A stretch of DNA of 23,898 bases from a virus, in IMG/VR virus record IMGVR_UViG_3300032069_000054, positions 1 through 23,898 of that record. One strand, 5' to 3'. Shown here one piece after another: positions 2,702 through 21,098 of this stretch. Made by a program: the position numbers and the translations under genes. The stretch's first letter is position 1. Every line of letters starts with the position of its first letter. A model generated the notes under the pieces. It did not search any database. It saw nothing but the letters and a program-made list of their open reading frames with translations, and had not been told where the DNA came from.

Positions 2702-5014
2702 ATGGAAGCCGAGTGGAGAACGCCACGGGAACAATGGCAAGACGAAGGCATCGGTAGGCGAACCTTTTTTAGAAAAATCAAGATTGGCATTTATGAAACA
2801 AAATACGTTTCCTCTCCGAAAGGCGGAGGCAAGGGAGGCCAGCAACTCCTTGTGCGCTTGAAAGCGCAGAGCGAAAAAACTGAGATCCTGAGTCAAGCTC
2901 AGGATGACAAAAAGAAAGCTCAGAATGACAAAAAGAAAATTCAGGATAACAAAAAATACAAGATCCATCGCGGCGAGCCCGGGCGCCATATAATCACGCC
3001 GATTGTGAATGGAATGCCAGCGCCTTTTGAAATTTTATCGTCAACCATAGGGGGGGATCCGGTCGGAGATGACGCGGTCCGGCAATTGCCGGTCGGAATA
3101 ATTTCCGAGTCTCCTCCGCTACAAAATCTTCCGGCGATCCTGGATTCCGGCCTTCGCCCGAATGATCATCCTAAACTCCTCCGGATTAGAAATCTCCGTT
3201 TCGCTCTAATCTCCGCCTTCCAGGAAGAGGCTGCTAAAAATCACCAACCCAGGAGCGAGATCATCCAGAAATTTCTTGAGCGCTTCGATGCAGGATTAAT
3301 TCTTTCCGACTTCAAAAAACAGATCAAGAAAATCAAACGCTCCACATTATATAACTGGCTTAAACTTTATGATCAGGGCGGCATCGACGCGCTGGTTCCT
3401 CAATATCGCGGCGCCCAGGCATCGCCCATCGCAGAGGCGGAAAAAAAGTTTCTTCTCACGAAGCTTCTCGATCAGAACAAGCCCACCATCGGCGACTCCA
3501 TCAACAAATGCAAATTCCTCCTGGGAGAGGCCTCTCCATCGAGTCCATCAAAGCTTCGGCGTTTCGTCAACGAATTCAGAAAAAATAATCACGATATCTG
3601 GGTTCTTGAGCGCGAAGGCGAAAAGGCCCTCAATGACAAATGCGCCCCTTATGCTGAACGTGAGTGGCGCGATCTTGCAGTTGGCGAGGCCGTGGTGGCC
3701 GATGGCCATAAACTTAATTTTCAGGTCATCAACCCCTTCACCGGCAAGTCCTGCCGTGCCATCATGGTTCTTTTTTGGGATTGGAAAAGCACTTATCCTC
3801 TCGGATGGGAAATCATGCTCACCGAATCCATCCAGTGCGTGCTTGCTGCGCTTCGAAACTCCATCATCACGCTTGGGAAGTTTCCTAAAAATGCTCTACT
3901 CGATAATGGCAAAGCGTTTCGAGCCAATATCTTTCGGCAAAAATTTCGGTTTCAGGAGACCGAAATTCCCGGAATATTTGACAAACTCAGTATCATCCCT
4001 CACTTTGCCATGCCTTACAATGCCCAGAGCAAGCCCATCGAGCGGTTTTTCCGGATATTCAACGATTGGTTCGAGCGTGAGCTTCCGTCTTATAGCGGCG
4101 CCTCCATCCCGGATAAGCCCGCCCACATGAACCGCAACGAAAAGCGGGCCAAAGACCTCCATAACGGATGGGTTCCTACCATTCCGGAGGCGATGGAGCT
4201 GATTTTTCGATGGCGCGAATACTATATCGATCAGCCATCGAGGGCGCGCGATGGACAAAGACCGCGAGATATCTTCGAGGCCGAAAAAGGCCCTGGCGTG
4301 GATCCCTTTGCCCTTCATTTTTTGATGATGACGTGCAAGGCCCGAATGGTCCACCGAAACGGCATTACCTTCAATGGCTGGCACTGGTTTCATGAGAACC
4401 TCTACGGCATCAAAGATTATGTCCTCATGTTTTATTCCTATTATGATCTCAGCCAGGTTTATATTTTTACAATGCAAAAAAACGGCGCTCCAGGGGAATT
4501 CCTCTGTGTCGCCAAGCCTATCGAAAAAGTAAAACCCTTCGCATCGGAAAGCGAATTTCCAGAAGATATGGCCGCGGTACAACAAAATAACGCTGCCAAG
4601 CGAAAATGCGTCCAGACAACCAAAAAGCTGGCCGACCTGCTCCAGTCGCAAAAAAATCTCTATATCGATTGGGACAAGAAATTCCGAGATCGGCCCGAAG
4701 TGGCCGAGGCGATCAAACAGATCGAGGATAAGAAACCTGCAGTAGAAAAAATGTCCCCGTTTGCGGATGAACCGGAGGCGATAGATGCGAAGACATCGGG
4801 AGGTGATGATGGGGAGAAGGGGATGGGGAGGCCCAAATTCGATCACGATTTTGAAAAATATGACTGGTTAATGGAGCAGAATGTGCTGACGCCAGATGAC
4901 CGCATATATATTAATGATTATAGGAGCCGGTCATCACTGTACAAACATACAACATTCAATGATAGCGAGGACCTCGACCGAAAAGTAATCCAGCAGGAGG
5001 AAATTAATGGCTAA
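2702..5014 (+). CDS. A: MuA-like DDE transposase
   Basis: A 770-residue transposase that cuts the phage ends and joins them to target DNA. Residues 1-55 resemble the N-terminal winged DNA-binding domain of MuA (WRTPREQW...KGGQQLLVRL). Residues about 160-235 form the end-binding HTH domain (RSTLYNWLKLYDQGGIDAL). The RNase H-like core carries D334 (VVADGH), D401 (LLDNGKAF) and E447 (SKPIERFF); the D-D distance of 67 equals that of MuA D269-D336. A Mu-type C-terminal beta-barrel follows at about 545-605, then a charged tail that would contact MuB. It is longer than MuA (663 residues), mainly through a low-complexity linker at 58-155, part of which (64-85) is encoded by a palindromic repeat and a 21-bp triplication. 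Confidence 0.95.
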   Translation: MEAEWRTPREQWQDEGIGRRTFFRKIKIGIYETKYVSSPKGGGKGGQQLLVRLKAQSEKTEILSQAQDDKKKAQNDKKKIQDNKKYKIHRGEPGRHIITPIVNGMPAPFEILSSTIGGDPVGDDAVRQLPVGIISESPPLQNLPAILDSGLRPNDHPKLLRIRNLRFALISAFQEEAAKNHQPRSEIIQKFLERFDAGLILSDFKKQIKKIKRSTLYNWLKLYDQGGIDALVPQYRGAQASPIAEAEKKFLLTKLLDQNKPTIGDSINKCKFLLGEASPSSPSKLRRFVNEFRKNNHDIWVLEREGEKALNDKCAPYAEREWRDLAVGEAVVADGHKLNFQVINPFTGKSCRAIMVLFWDWKSTYPLGWEIMLTESIQCVLAALRNSIITLGKFPKNALLDNGKAFRANIFRQKFRFQETEIPGIFDKLSIIPHFAMPYNAQSKPIERFFRIFNDWFERELPSYSGASIPDKPAHMNRNEKRAKDLHNGWVPTIPEAMELIFRWREYYIDQPSRARDGQRPRDIFEAEKGPGVDPFALHFLMMTCKARMVHRNGITFNGWHWFHENLYGIKDYVLMFYSYYDLSQVYIFTMQKNGAPGEFLCVAKPIEKVKPFASESEFPEDMAAVQQNNAAKRKCVQTTKKLADLLQSQKNLYIDWDKKFRDRPEVAEAIKQIEDKKPAVEKMSPFADEPEAIDAKTSGGDDGEKGMGRPKFDHDFEKYDWLMEQNVLTPDDRIYINDYRSRSSLYKHTTFNDSEDLDRKVIQQEEING
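2885..2958. repeat. Palindromic repeat plus 21-bp triplication inside the transposase gene
   Basis: ATCCTGAG (2885-2892) and CTCAGGAT (2898-2905) form a hairpin of the REP-like kind seen again at 8182, 10674 and 19127. The right arm and following AAAAAGAA are repeated three times with 21-bp period (2896-2916, 2917-2937, 2938-2958), encoding the heptads AQDDKKK, AQNDKKK and IQDNKK. The period keeps frame, so the insertion survives as a linker. Confidence 0.85.
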
Positions 5015-5974: not shown

Positions 5975-6471
5975 ACAACCTAAGGATTATTGGGAAAATC
6001 ATTCTTGAGAAGCATCCCGGATTCTTTTATCTCGAGCAGATTATGAAAGAGACGAAGATCGAGCGCAAACTCGCACGTGACACGCTCTGGACGCTTTGCG
6101 AAGAGGGCCTGATCAGGCTGATTTCGAAGCGGAAAAAGGCCGAAAAGGAATATGGCAAGCCGCCCTCGTATGTATTCAATTTCAGGATTCTGAATAAATG
6201 TGCCCTGGCCGAGCGGATTGCGCCGAAGCGATTTGAAAATACAGCCCAGGACAGGGTCTGGTCCGTCATCCGGAATAAAAATATTTTTACCGCCCGCGAT
6301 CTCACGGTTCTCTCGGGCGTTCAGCGGGGCACGGTGCGCTGGTATATGAAAGCGCTTCGAAAGACCGGAGTCATTCAGGCCATCGACAAGGGAGGCCCGG
6401 GTTGCAGGTGGAGGCTTCCAAATGACCCGGGGCCGAGGAGGCCGTATGTCGGGGATCAGGTTAAGCGATAG
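5971..6471 (+). CDS. Double winged-helix DNA-binding protein
   Basis: A 166-residue protein with two apparent winged-helix segments: residues about 3-55 (FYLEQIMKETKIERKLARDT, then EEGLIRLIS as wing) and about 88-145 (IFTARDLTVLSGVQRGTVRW, then KTGVIQAID). The C-terminus is basic. It begins within the last codon of the B gene (ATGA overlap). Such a protein right after MuB-like ATPases could regulate early transcription or assist replication; a specific function is not recognised. It ends just before a palindromic repeat at 6474-6500. Confidence 0.65.
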   Translation: MNNLRIIGKIILEKHPGFFYLEQIMKETKIERKLARDTLWTLCEEGLIRLISKRKKAEKEYGKPPSYVFNFRILNKCALAERIAPKRFENTAQDRVWSVIRNKNIFTARDLTVLSGVQRGTVRWYMKALRKTGVIQAIDKGGPGCRWRLPNDPGPRRPYVGDQVKR

Positions 6472-6473
6472 AC

Positions 6474-6500
6474 CCCATTAGAGATAAATCTTTAACGGGG
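6474..6500. repeat. Palindromic repeat family A, copy 1
   Basis: CCCATTAGAGAT / ATCTTTAACGGG arms around a two-base loop. A nearly identical copy lies at 18567-18593. In both cases GGGGCAAG and an AGGAGG ribosome binding site follow directly, so the element forms the leader of the next gene. Confidence 0.85.
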
Positions 6501-6514
6501 CAAGGAGGATAGCC

Positions 6515-6721: not shown

Positions 6722-7009
6722 ATGAAACCGATGCCTCGCATCATAAAAGCAGGGGGCGATTTAAGACCGCCCCTACACAGGGTTCATAATTGCTCTTTAT
6801 GCGAAGACTTTACGGTGGAAAACCGCGGGCTCTGTTTTGGCTGCCTGATGGGCCTGGAACGAAAGGCCACCGGCCCCGTGGAGTACAGGGCCTCAACTCC
6901 ACAGGGGCCCCGTGGAGTACAGGGCCTCAACTCCACAGGGGAAAACGAACATGGAAATGAAAGGAGCGCTTACGATGAATCCGCAAAGCGCAGAGCGCAT
7001 AGCGCATAG
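6722..7009 (+). CDS. Small Cys-pair protein with repeat-encoded ends
   Basis: A 95-residue frame from ATG 6722 (AGGAAA upstream). Its core, residues about 22-45, has two Cys pairs (CSLC, CFGC) suiting a zinc site. The flanks derive from dispersed repeats: residues 11-21 (GGDLRPPLHRV) come from the palindrome at 6752-6774, and residues 50-75 from a perfect 34-bp tandem duplication at 6872-6939, read in two frames because 34 is not divisible by three. The tail is therefore probably unstructured, and the gene may originally have ended differently. Overlaps the start of the next gene. Function unknown. Confidence 0.45.
   Translation: MKPMPRIIKAGGDLRPPLHRVHNCSLCEDFTVENRGLCFGCLMGLERKATGPVEYRASTPQGPRGVQGLNSTGENEHGNERSAYDESAKRRAHSA
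6752..6774. repeat. Palindromic repeat family B, copy 1
   Basis: GGGGGCG...CGCCCC arms around TTTAA, within a coding frame. Related copies with different arm sequence but the same design (GGnnnGGTTTtAAACC) lie at 7228, 7428 and 17425. Confidence 0.75.
6872..6939. repeat. Perfect 34-bp tandem duplication (family C)
   Basis: The unit starting GGCCCCGTGGAGTACAGGGC is present twice without a mismatch (6872-6905, 6906-6939). A third copy with one change is at 15248-15281 in the large terminase gene. Each unit contains GTGGAG and CTCCAC arms able to form a hairpin. Confidence 0.9.
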
Positions 7010-13702: not shown

Positions 13703-15310
13703 ATGAGAAAAACAGCGCTTACTGAAAAGAAGTTTGATCTTGAAATCGAGGACCTCCGGGACCTTATCCGGGAATCGGTCTCCCCATTCGAGGGCGATAC
13801 GCCCGCAAAAAAGAAGGCGCGAATCGAGCGAGCCCGTAAAGATAAAGATTTCTTTTTTCATGCCTATCTTCCGCACTATTTTGATAAACCCTCGGCGCCT
13901 TTTCATGCAGAGCTCCATGAGCTTGCCGAGCAGCCCCTTGCGGCGATCGCAGCTCCCAGAGGCCACGCCAAATCAACGCATATGTCCTTTGGAGAGCCAA
14001 TCCACGACATCTGTTACGGCCGCGAGAGATTTATCATCATCGCCTCGGATTCAACGACCCAGGCCGAGGATTTTACCACTGCGATTAAATTGGAACTCGA
14101 AGAGAATCCAAGAATCAAGCACGATTTCGGAGACTTTATCTCCAAGAAAAACGCCGGATATCATTATGACGATTTTATTACGGCCAACAATATTCGAATC
14201 GTCGCAAAGGGGACAGGCTCACGAATTCGGGGATTAAAACATCGGCAATTTCGCCCCACTAAATTTGTGGGCGATGACATCGAAAATGACGAAAACGTCC
14301 AGAGCCTGGAGCAGAGAAAAAAGACGATGAATTGGCTTCTCCGAGCGGTGCGAGGAGGCCTTGAGCCCGAGGGATCGAAAATGTTCGTTATCGGGACAAT
14401 CCTTCATTATGACAGCGCTCTTTCACAACTCACAGATCCCAAGAAAAATCTTAAATGGGCCAAAAAAATCTATCAGGCATCTCCAGAGCGCCCTCTTTGG
14501 CCTGAACGATGGCCAAAGGAAAAACTTGAGGCCGAGAAAGAGATCATGGGCACGGTGGCATTTAATCAGGAATTCCGCAATAGGCCTATCGATCCCGAAA
14601 CACAGATATTTCGGGAAGAGTGGATCAAATATTATGATCCTTTGGCGATCGATATCTCAGAGATGGATATTTATTCCGCCACTGATCCGAGCGTCGGAAA
14701 GTCTGAGCAATCAGATTATCAGGCCATCCTCACCGTGGGGATCCCCAGGGCGGGCGAGAAAAAAGGGACGATCTATATTCTTGACGCCGATATCGGAAGG
14801 ACATCCGCTAAAAAACTTGCCATGAAAATGTTTGCCAAATATGAACGCTATCGGTGCATTCTTCACGGTTTTGAGGATGTGGCCTTTCAGGAAGTGATGA
14901 AACAATGGATTGACGACCTTTCAAAGGAAAATCGAATCTATCTTCCGACCGTGGGCATCAGTCAGAAGAAAGATAAAGTCCAACGAATCACAAGGCTTTC
15001 GCCTCTAATTGAAAATGGGACGATTCTTTTTCGCCGGGATCAAATCGAATTGATCGAGCAGCTCATTCATTTTCCGAAAGGGGATCACGACGATGGCCCA
15101 GACGCCTTGGAGATGGCTGTGGGGCTGGCCAGAGGATCAGGGCCGGCTGTCGCAGTAGGAAGCGAGACCACGAAAGAGGATTATCACGCCGAAAGGCGCA
15201 GCGGAATATTTTCAAGACTCTGGCCATCAAGGGAAATAAGGGCCTCCGGCCCTGTGGAGTACAGGGCCTCAACTCCACAGGGGCCTACGGCCTGGAGAAC
15301 GATAATATGA
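13703..15310 (+). CDS. Terminase large subunit
   Basis: A 535-residue packaging motor. ATPase part: Walker A-like APRGHAKST (84-92), Walker B KFVGDDIE (187-194) with D191/D192 and a coupling glutamate nearby; motif III-like IGTILHYDS (230-238). Nuclease part: ATDPS (D328), DADIG (D361) and DDGPDALE (D464, D468). The C-terminal ~20 residues (RASGPVEYRASTPQG) are encoded by the 34-bp repeat (15248-15281), so the ending is repeat-derived. It overlaps the portal gene by ATGA. Translation probably starts at ATG 13703; the upstream region is noncoding and palindromic. Confidence 0.9.
   Translation: MRKTALTEKKFDLEIEDLRDLIRESVSPFEGDTPAKKKARIERARKDKDFFFHAYLPHYFDKPSAPFHAELHELAEQPLAAIAAPRGHAKSTHMSFGEPIHDICYGRERFIIIASDSTTQAEDFTTAIKLELEENPRIKHDFGDFISKKNAGYHYDDFITANNIRIVAKGTGSRIRGLKHRQFRPTKFVGDDIENDENVQSLEQRKKTMNWLLRAVRGGLEPEGSKMFVIGTILHYDSALSQLTDPKKNLKWAKKIYQASPERPLWPERWPKEKLEAEKEIMGTVAFNQEFRNRPIDPETQIFREEWIKYYDPLAIDISEMDIYSATDPSVGKSEQSDYQAILTVGIPRAGEKKGTIYILDADIGRTSAKKLAMKMFAKYERYRCILHGFEDVAFQEVMKQWIDDLSKENRIYLPTVGISQKKDKVQRITRLSPLIENGTILFRRDQIELIEQLIHFPKGDHDDGPDALEMAVGLARGSGPAVAVGSETTKEDYHAERRSGIFSRLWPSREIRASGPVEYRASTPQGPTAWRTII
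15248..15281. repeat. Family C 34-bp repeat inside the terminase gene
   Basis: One substitution from the unit at 6872-6905. It codes for SGPVEYRASTPQG at the terminase C-terminus and lies 25 bp from the portal start. Flanking GGCCTCCGGCC and GGCCTACGGCC words suggest a larger hairpin. Confidence 0.85.
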
Positions 15311-18327: not shown

Positions 18328-18564
18328 ATGAACATCGATCCGAAATTATTGAAGGGAGTGAAATATCACGATTCCGAAAAAAAACTGGCGGTTAAAGACG
18401 GGCAGAAGGTTTATCAGTATACGCCTCGGGAAAGAGACCTGAAACCGGAAGATCTGCTTTCTAAAAAGGAATATTCTGACTCGATCGTCATCGTCACCGC
18501 AGACGGCCAGAAAATTAGAATTCCGAAGGATGAGGGACGAGAGAAGAAGAATAGTAAAGGATAG
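18328..18564 (+). CDS. Small hypothetical protein before the capsid gene
   Basis: A 78-residue charged protein. ATG 18328 follows AAAAGGAGGAAAAAAC, a strong site. Residues about 50-70 (SDSIVIVTADGQKIRIPKD) form a beta-hairpin-like stretch and the ends are lysine-rich. It lies between the MuF gene and the protease-capsid gene and is probably a head-related accessory protein. Not recognised. Confidence 0.65.
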   Translation: MNIDPKLLKGVKYHDSEKKLAVKDGQKVYQYTPRERDLKPEDLLSKKEYSDSIVIVTADGQKIRIPKDEGREKKNSKG

Positions 18565-18566
18565 AA

Positions 18567-18593
18567 CTCATTAGAGATAAATCTTTAATGGGG
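18567..18593. repeat. Palindromic repeat family A, copy 2
   Basis: CATTAGAGAT / ATCTTTAATG arms, followed by GGGGCAAGCAAGGAGG, the ribosome binding site of the capsid gene at 18612. Nearly the same as 6474-6500. Confidence 0.85.
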
Positions 18594-18611
18594 CAAGCAA
18601 GGAGGAATCTA

Positions 18612-21098
18612 ATGCCATATCCAAATGAACATTCAGCAAGATTGAAAGATCCAGGTCAATTTGATTCTTTTGCCCGGAAAAATAACGAGACCGGCGAAGG
18701 AATCGATTTTATTTTTGGGATCAAAAATGGAAAGTCTGAGATACAGGCCATTCGATTCAACAAAAAGAAATTCACCGTGAAAGAAGCGAAGGCCTGGCTT
18801 AAAGATAAAGACATTAAATATATCGATTTTGAAAAAGCCGAGGATAATGCCAAAGCCGCCTTATCTTTGGATCAGATTCGGGAAAGAATATATTCAAAAG
18901 TTATTCCGACGCCCGAGCCGGTGGAATTGCCCAATGTTTATTTGATTGATGTCTATATTGATTATGCGATCATCTCTCGAGATGGAAAATATTTTAAATT
19001 GCCCTTCACCATTGATCCTTCGGCAACCTCAGGAGATGAACTGAAATTCGGCGATGAGATCGAGGTCGAAAAAGATTATGTCCCGGTCGAGAAAGCCGAA
19101 GCGGCGCGAAAGGCCCACGAAGAAAGATCCTTCGCTTCGCTCAGGATGACATTTCCCATTCATTTGAGGGCGGCGGCTGGCGATCGCGCATCTGAAGATT
19201 ATGGCTACAAGTGGGATGTCCGAATCGTGGAATATGGCCCCGATAAACAGGACGCCATTTATTGGGATCCGCAAGTCCTTAGGGCGGCCAAGCCTCTTTA
19301 TGAGGGATCAAAAGTATTTGCGCTCACCGAGGCCCAGCATCAGGCCCAGGCTCATCCATTTGGAAAATCGATCAGAGATTTGGTCGGTTGGATCAATAAC
19401 GTTACGGATGATGATAAAGGATTAGGCGGAGATTTTAATATTCTCAAATCGGCGAAATGGCTGCGTGATATGGCGGTCGATGCCTTTGAGCGGGGCAAGC
19501 CCGATCTCATCGGCCTATCAAATGATATCGGCGGGAAAGTGGCCACAAAAATGGTCAATGGCAAAAGGATGCGGACTCCAGTGGAGATCTCTAACGTGAC
19601 TATAGATATCGTCTATGAGCCCGCAGCAGGTGGAAAATTCTTACGCATGGCCGCAGCCGTTGAGGCAGGCCGAAAGGAGGCAGAGATGTTGAAGAAGTTA
19701 TTGGCGGCAATGAGGGCGTTGAGGCCTGACCTCTGCGCAACTGTCAACGAGGAGACCGTTACCGAAGATCAGGTAATCGAGATCTTGAAGGCGGCGGTCA
19801 CAAAAATCCAGGACCCGAAAGAAAAGATCGAGTTTCAAACTCTTCTCGATGGGGCAAAAATGGCAGCCTGCTCCATCACTTTGAAAGATGAGCTCAAGGA
19901 TTGCGGACTTCCCGATCTCTCTCAGGCGAAAATCAGGAAGCAATTTGAAGGGAAAGTTTTTGAAGCGGATGTTCTTCGCGCGGCGATCAAAGAAGAGAAA
20001 GAGTATATTGACAAGCTCACCGGATCTGGAGGCATTACAGGGGCTGGGCAGATTCAGGTAACAAAGGATGAATGGGACAAATCGAAACAGATGCTCGATG
20101 ATATTTTTGAGAAAAAATTTCACAGCATCAAAGCGGCCTATGTCCGCATCACGGGCGATGAGCAGCTCAGCGGTCGGATCGATCAGGCCCCGAGGCTTCG
20201 GGCTTCTTTGACGCAGGCAACCTGGGCGGAGGTCTTTGGCGATTCCATCACCAGGCGGATGCTCAAAGAATATGCGGAAGCAGGGCTTGAGGATTGGAGA
20301 AAAATTGCAGATGTTGTCCCGGTCTCGGATGTCAGGACTCAGAGAAGGGTTCGGATCGGAGGCTATGGAAATCTTCCCACCGTTGCAGAAGGCGGCGCCT
20401 ACACGGCTCTTACTTCTCCTACCGATGAGGAAGCAACCTACGCCGTGCCCAAGAGAGGGGGCACGGAGGATCTGACTCTCGAAATGATCATCAATGATGA
20501 TGTGGGGGGAGTGCGGAAAATCCCTCAGAGGCTCGGGAGGGGTGCGGCGAGAACGCTTTATGAATTTGTCTTTGATTTCATCAAGGACAATCCGACGATC
20601 TACGATGCCGTCGCTCTTTTTCATGCGACTCACGCCAATCTCGGAACGAATGCCCTTGATGCCACAAACCTGCTCGCTTCCAGAAACAGGATGATCAAGC
20701 AAACGGAGCTGACTTCCGGGAAGAGATTGGGCATCCTTCCGAAATATGGGTTAGTGCCACCGGAGCTTGCAAAAACGATGTGGGATCTGATCAGCACGCC
20801 AGATACGGGGCAATACACGCCCACAGCGCCCGATTTCGTCAAGAAGTGGAAGATCGAGATGATCGAGGTCATCTACTGGACCGATGCGAATAATTGGTTC
20901 CTGAGCGCAAGCCCGGCAGATTGTCCGACCATTGAAATCGGATTCCTGAACGGCAACGAAAACCCGGAGCTCTTTGTCCAGGATCAGCCGACCGTCGGGA
21001 GCATGTTTTCCAATGATAAACTCACTTACAAGATCCGGCACCGTTACGGCGGAGCAGTCGTAGATTACAGAGGTCTGGACGGATCGATTGTAGCGTAG
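18612..21098 (+). CDS. Prohead protease - scaffold - major capsid fusion
   Basis: An 828-residue fusion. ATG 18612 is chosen because AAGGAGG precedes it; the in-frame ATG 18588 lies in the repeat. Residues 1-70 (YPNEHSARLKDPGQFDSF) are an N-terminal domain I know from Mu-like protease proteins. 195-340 is a serine protease-like domain (WDVRIVEYGP, YEGSKVF, H248 in AHPFGKS, S303 in LIGLSNDIGG). 345-520 is helical and scaffold-like. 525-828 is a major-capsid-like domain (RVRIGGYGNLPTVAEGG, ALFHATHANLG, PELFVQDQP, RHRYGGAVVDYRG), similar to gpT of Mu-like phages. In Mu these are separate genes (I, Z, T). A palindromic repeat codes for RSFASLRMT at 172-180. An internal ribosome binding site gives a shorter product from codon 359. 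Confidence 0.85.
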   Translation: MPYPNEHSARLKDPGQFDSFARKNNETGEGIDFIFGIKNGKSEIQAIRFNKKKFTVKEAKAWLKDKDIKYIDFEKAEDNAKAALSLDQIRERIYSKVIPTPEPVELPNVYLIDVYIDYAIISRDGKYFKLPFTIDPSATSGDELKFGDEIEVEKDYVPVEKAEAARKAHEERSFASLRMTFPIHLRAAAGDRASEDYGYKWDVRIVEYGPDKQDAIYWDPQVLRAAKPLYEGSKVFALTEAQHQAQAHPFGKSIRDLVGWINNVTDDDKGLGGDFNILKSAKWLRDMAVDAFERGKPDLIGLSNDIGGKVATKMVNGKRMRTPVEISNVTIDIVYEPAAGGKFLRMAAAVEAGRKEAEMLKKLLAAMRALRPDLCATVNEETVTEDQVIEILKAAVTKIQDPKEKIEFQTLLDGAKMAACSITLKDELKDCGLPDLSQAKIRKQFEGKVFEADVLRAAIKEEKEYIDKLTGSGGITGAGQIQVTKDEWDKSKQMLDDIFEKKFHSIKAAYVRITGDEQLSGRIDQAPRLRASLTQATWAEVFGDSITRRMLKEYAEAGLEDWRKIADVVPVSDVRTQRRVRIGGYGNLPTVAEGGAYTALTSPTDEEATYAVPKRGGTEDLTLEMIINDDVGGVRKIPQRLGRGAARTLYEFVFDFIKDNPTIYDAVALFHATHANLGTNALDATNLLASRNRMIKQTELTSGKRLGILPKYGLVPPELAKTMWDLISTPDTGQYTPTAPDFVKKWKIEMIEVIYWTDANNWFLSASPADCPTIEIGFLNGNENPELFVQDQPTVGSMFSNDKLTYKIRHRYGGAVVDYRGLDGSIVA
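19127..19150. repeat. Host-type family D repeat inside the capsid-protease gene
   Basis: ATCCTTCGCTTCGCTCAGGAT, extended by GACA, translates as SFASLRMT, a phrase typical of a dispersed palindromic repeat found in many bacterial genomes. It lies between the N-terminal domain and the protease domain and keeps the frame. Confidence 0.85.
19673..19688 (+). promoter_or_regulatory. Strong internal ribosome binding site in the fusion gene
   Basis: AAAGGAGG (19673-19680), a five-base gap and ATG at 19686, in frame with the long gene (codon 359). Translation from here would give a 470-residue scaffold-capsid protein (19686-21098) lacking the protease. This is the arrangement of nested scaffold genes such as lambda C/Nu3 and Mu I/Z. 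Confidence 0.75.

Follow-up and report, generated by a model that had tools for sequence, protein, structure and literature searches.

The window, by which we mean the whole 23,898-nucleotide stretch of viral DNA analysed here, contains a gene in which a protease, a scaffold-like region and a major capsid domain follow one another in a single reading frame, and an internal start at the junction between protease and scaffold is conserved in this gene family at the nucleotide level. Based on these sequence comparisons, we consider it very likely that one gene gives rise to two co-terminal proteins, an 828-aa protease-scaffold-capsid chain and, from the internal start, a 470-aa scaffold-capsid chain, of which the long form would be a minority that delivers the protease to the prohead.

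The fusion gene and its domains

The gene is an 828-codon open frame in the ORF list of the window, running on the plus strand, like all of the features described in this and the next section, from the ATG at 18612 to the TAG at 21096-21098. Its product belongs to phrog_29592, a family of fused head proteins that carries the annotation unknown function (E 2e-154, with residues 113-828 of 828 matched to profile positions 120-891 of 893). Single-sequence scans of viral and genome contigs found no relatives of the window protein, and a two-sequence profile made from it and the protein of Microcystis phage Mae-JY22 found 182 in IMG/VR, of which the best 80 were kept. In all 80 of the relatives kept the match lies within one unbroken frame and none is split, so we regard the fusion as characteristic of the family and not as an artefact of sequencing; a stop codon lost by artefact in one contig is ruled out in the same way.

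The full-length start is preceded by an SD, AAGGAGG, at 18599-18605, 6 nt before the ATG, and an upstream in-frame ATG at 18588 has no SD comparable to it. The first ~80 residues (18612-18851) form an extension of low to medium pLDDT that is absent from close relatives, which begin near residue 82-84 with an SD of their own, and in 3 of 43 relatives the protease part has a ChaB domain in place of these residues. Given both observations, the N-terminus of the fusion protein seems to accept swapped modules. A Pfam match of residues 38-65 to BRX, a plant family, was below its cut-off and was disregarded.

The protease domain spans about residues 190-349 (19179-19658). Searching solved structures by sequence gave no relatives of it, which made a fold search necessary. 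The structure model of the N-terminal part covers residues 1-358 and is confident for about 190-349, and the best structural match of the modelled domain is the capsid assembly protease of T4, gp21 (Z 10.0, rmsd 3.2, 130 residues aligned), with the herpesvirus assemblins ranking below it. By structural comparison the domain thus has the gp21/assemblin fold, and the evidence from Foldseek alone is weaker (E 0.009, probability 1.00). In 43 diverse sequences, all of which match phrog_29592, His243 and Ser303 never vary, and this would fit a Ser-His protease. Residues 184-491 match phrog_15531, a separate family annotated as head maturation protease, and this match bears both on the protease and on the region that follows it.

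The model's low-confidence linker starts at residue 350, and the internal ATG at codon 359 therefore lies just past the protease domain; the linker itself (residues 350-358, 19659-19685) holds the internal SD. It is followed by a region of predicted helices at about residues 359-525 (19686-20187), which, from these helices and from its position where a scaffold is expected, would act as the scaffold. Residues 535-821 (20214-21074) are an HK97-fold major capsid domain belonging to PF25209, Phage_capsid_4 (E 1.5e-43, 150.4 bits against a gathering cut-off of 27), and the fold search with the capsid part was dominated by HK97-fold phage capsids and encapsulins. The score against the Mu gpT family, PF10124, was 18.6 bits and lies below the gathering cut-off of 20.1. 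Proteolytic capsid maturation is normal in the HK97-type fold group.

Conservation of the internal start

The original prediction described an 828-codon frame with AAAGGAGG at 19673-19680 and an in-frame ATG at 19686, codon 359, and in all of this it was exact to the base. The GG of this SD is 5 nt from the ATG (19686-19688), the proposed start of the 470-aa product. Among the internal Met codons of the window gene, Met359 has the strongest anti-SD energy, -11.6 kcal/mol, and the best of the 13 others reaches -5.8. The first start at 18612 has an SD as strong as the internal one, so the dominant product is not predictable from sequence alone.

To describe conservation we used 55 representatives with less than 70% identity. 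In their alignment the internal start falls in a gap-rich variable linker, and Met is present there in 53 of the 55. The median anti-SD energy is -8.0 kcal/mol at this position and -2.0 at 663 other internal Mets; -6 kcal/mol is reached by 85% of the junction Mets compared with 6% of the others, and the junction Met is the strongest internal Met in 43/53 genes, where 4.2 would be expected. Across 707 codon columns, mean anti-SD energy is strongest at column 359. No other Met-rich column shows a signal of this kind, and the remaining strong columns (e.g. 345, 587, 620) are almost without Met. The original prediction had proposed asking whether the internal ribosome binding site and ATG are kept while the surrounding codons vary, and this is the pattern we see in the nearest relatives (L004, L005, L006, L008, L064) and family-wide. 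In L012, L031 and L039 the SD sits in differing codon registers, and the two representatives without Met, L044 and L056, have AAGGAG or AAGGAGGT ahead of a GTG. There are exceptions: no clear SD is present at the junction in the L016 subgroup, which has AAGGAG instead before a GTG about 30 codons downstream, the junction sites of L010, L027, L060 and L068 are weaker, and Microcystis phage Mae-JY22 has kept the Met with fewer than 5 SD bases in a row before it.

One way to account for all of this is selection on the protein, under which the linker would be maintained as a charged, K/E-rich peptide with Met at its end, and its AAG-GAG codons would mimic an SD. We therefore compared the genes with a synonymous null in which the same peptides were recoded with each gene's own synonymous codons. 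The null is already fairly SD-like, with means of -6.2 to -6.4 kcal/mol, so peptide composition contributes to the SD signal. The observed SD is nevertheless stronger than in the recodings (z -6.0 and -6.9 in two runs) and the local mRNA structure is weaker (z +5.6), where the z-scores should not be read as independent-event probabilities given that the representatives share kinship. GAG is also favoured over GAA at the site (p 0.002). An SD arising by chance or driven by the peptide is ruled out by the recoding, and we give the linker explanation almost no credence. The mRNA structure at the internal start is -8.3 kcal/mol compared with -14.1 at other internal Mets. The signal does not depend on close relatives, as it persists in subsets of 37, 14 and 9 distant representatives (<60%, <50% and <45% identity), with SD z-scores of -5.0, -3.8 and -3.2 and mRNA-structure z-scores of +4.4, +2.3 and +3.5, respectively.

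An SD-like sequence at a domain boundary, which is where this site is located, could instead slow ribosomes and aid folding of the protease without any initiation. Such a pause would work without a start codon at SD distance and without open mRNA structure, both of which are conserved, and we consider it very improbable. The SD and ATG could also be left over from a once separate scaffold-capsid gene that was joined to the protease gene when a stop codon was lost, given that the capsid is a separate gene in other phages such as Mu and lambda, and that phrog_15531 suggests that protease-scaffold genes exist separately. A remnant of this kind would decay, whereas the site remains constrained at the nucleotide level, and the 80 relatives kept are all fused, many of them at less than 45% identity, so that a fossil start seems to us extremely improbable.

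The explanation to which we give the most weight among the alternatives, and which we still think unlikely, is a polyprotein in which all subunits are made at full length, the protease excises itself and removes the scaffold in the prohead, and the internal SD is not used. The protease domain appears intact, a strong SD precedes the first start, release of the capsid protein is possible through proteolysis alone, and maturation by proteolysis is usual in the fold group of this capsid (PMC8508860). What a polyprotein leaves unexplained is that one position in the linker keeps a start codon, an SD and weak mRNA structure beyond what synonymous recoding predicts, and that GTG replaces ATG in L044 and L056. 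An internal start giving scaffold and capsid without the protease, as the original prediction proposed, thus has strong comparative support from the conserved SD and Met and from the recoding tests. The name "capsid-only" that it used for this product is loose, as the product would be a scaffold-capsid protein. In having the short form outnumber the long one, and in suggesting that long products could serve as protease-bearing "seed" subunits of the same lattice, the original prediction reaches further than this comparative support.

Two probable products from one gene and nested starts elsewhere

We infer that both products are made, and their ratio, co-assembly and cleavage may be pictured as follows. 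Ribosomes would initiate at 18612 to make the 828-aa protease-scaffold-capsid chain (about 92 kDa), and separately at the strong internal SD and the ATG at 19686 to make the 470-aa scaffold-capsid chain (about 52 kDa), which would supply the majority of shell subunits. The minority long chains would use the scaffold and capsid domains common to both forms to co-assemble with it, thereby carrying the protease into the prohead. There the protease would trim itself and the scaffold off prior to DNA packaging, leaving a capsid protein of ~300 residues. A single protease-capsid chain would place a protease on every shell subunit, which would be a poor fit inside the prohead and a waste of protein, and a nested start removes this problem. 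It also makes the protease dose open to direct test via one SD.

The window has a Mu-type transposase gene at 2702-5014, and upstream of the fusion gene there are matches to terminase, portal and head morphogenesis/Mu F-like families, which makes comparison with Mu-like phages sensible. In Mu, the sequence record annotates Z as starting inside I, so that in Mu as in the window a protease gene has an in-frame internal scaffold start at the protease-scaffold boundary. The SD and Met fall in a variable linker in both, and the peptides, QENKPM in Mu and QEDPM or KEPDPM in the window's family, look alike. In a positive control with 17 Mu-type sequences, the Z start had anti-SD energies of -5.9 to -7.4 kcal/mol and was the strongest internal Met in 16 of them. 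Mu differs in that the capsid gene, T, is separate and the nested product is scaffold only. Comparing the protease with a single Mu gpI sequence by hhalign gave no meaningful match, which is not evidence against homology.

Lambda C/Nu3 and KS10 genes 28/29 are likewise pairs in which the 3' part of a protease gene contains the scaffold gene in the same frame, an arrangement that has been called common (PMC2628397). Both differ from the window gene in having a separate capsid gene. In herpesviruses, an assemblin-fold protease is fused to a scaffold in UL26, and a shorter in-frame scaffold product is made from UL26.5; the likeness to the window protease in this case is the assemblin fold seen in the structural comparison. 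The differences are that the UL26.5 short form comes from its own transcript and not from an internal ribosome start, and that the capsid protein gene is separate.

Fusion of protease and capsid is itself known. In Pseudomonas phage MD8, gp5 combines protease, scaffold and HK97-fold capsid in a single gene, and the passages of PMC8508860 consulted make no mention of an internal start in it. Protease-capsid fusions have been described in Paracoccus prophages (PMC6536676), and two NCBIfam models, NF045540 (ClpP-like) and NF045541, cover prohead protease/capsid fusions. A laboratory phage of E. coli K-12, mEp043, also shares the layout of the window gene. The single protease-scaffold-capsid gene of the original prediction is therefore borne out in its domains and their order, and is not new as a fusion. 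Nested scaffold starts are likewise already known from Mu, lambda and KS10, and in the open-access literature we found no description of one that yields scaffold-capsid. A paper on an Stx2 phage was set aside as a precedent because its capsid is of a different type.

The capsid parts of MD8 gp5 and NF045540 are related to that of the window protein, and the protease there is ClpP-type; against the full-length NF045540 model the window protein scored 151 bits against a cut-off of 475, from the capsid part only. NF045541 proteins, such as gp8 of Stenotrophomonas phage S1, have an identical domain order, and the capsid part matches (E 9e-52); here too the match is confined to the capsid part, with 176 bits against a full-length cut-off of 525. 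In a set of 17 NF045540-type and mixed representatives, a strong SD coincides with a Met-rich column at one place only, the protease-scaffold junction (z -2.9), and the ClpP-type NF045540 genes have an unchanging SD-like GAGGA ahead of the junction Met. Of 36 NF045541-type representatives, 31 carry a Met close by, in most cases with an SD, and the median anti-SD energy of junction Mets is -6.5 compared with -1.7 (z -3.3). The evidence for a junction start in these two families is weaker than in the window's own family. A second product is annotated in none of the named fusion records that we examined.

With moderate confidence we lean towards the view that phages whose protease and capsid genes are fused generally use nested starts to uncouple the protease from scaffold-capsid, a rule that would hold in at least three fusion families differing in their protease (gp21/assemblin-like, NF045541 and ClpP-like NF045540). 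Such genes would have one annotated product where two exist, their proheads would be built from two forms of the capsid chain, and the dose of protease would be given by the ratio of two ribosome starts. If this is true, a second product, probably the main precursor of the shell, has gone unannotated in a common class of phage head gene, which is relevant to proteomics, to structural work and to expressing these capsids in other hosts, and the nesting of scaffold in protease genes seen in Mu and lambda would be extended to the capsid chain itself.

We also noted two variants among the NF045541-type sequences. In L245, L253, L259 and L268 the junction Met has no SD and a very A-rich upstream region, as in hosts that initiate without an SD. 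In L255, L258, L260, L262, L270 and L271, the NF045541-type capsids are in frames of ~700 aa whose N-terminal part has no match to the family protease, which suggests protease-domain swaps.

Repeats in the window

A REP-like repeat, GATCCTTCGCTTCGCTCAGGATGACA, lies in frame inside the fusion gene at 19122-19151, where it is read as ERSFASLRMT and forms a low-confidence loop ahead of the protease domain. Its core was not found in any other locus fetched for comparison, and diverged relatives of it are found at 2880, 8177 and 10669 of the window. A 43-base repeat containing a palindrome occurs at 6462-6504 and 18555-18597 (88% identical), the latter copy being directly upstream of the fusion gene and the former of another region. 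Another repeat, CCGTGGAGTACAGGGCCTCAACTCCACAGGGG, occurs at 6856-6943 and 15232-15285 and is also translated in frame, towards the end of the terminase gene, as PVEYRASTPQGP. Near the start of the contig, at 351-508, there is a short tandem array of 11-base units, CTGGCACTCAC.
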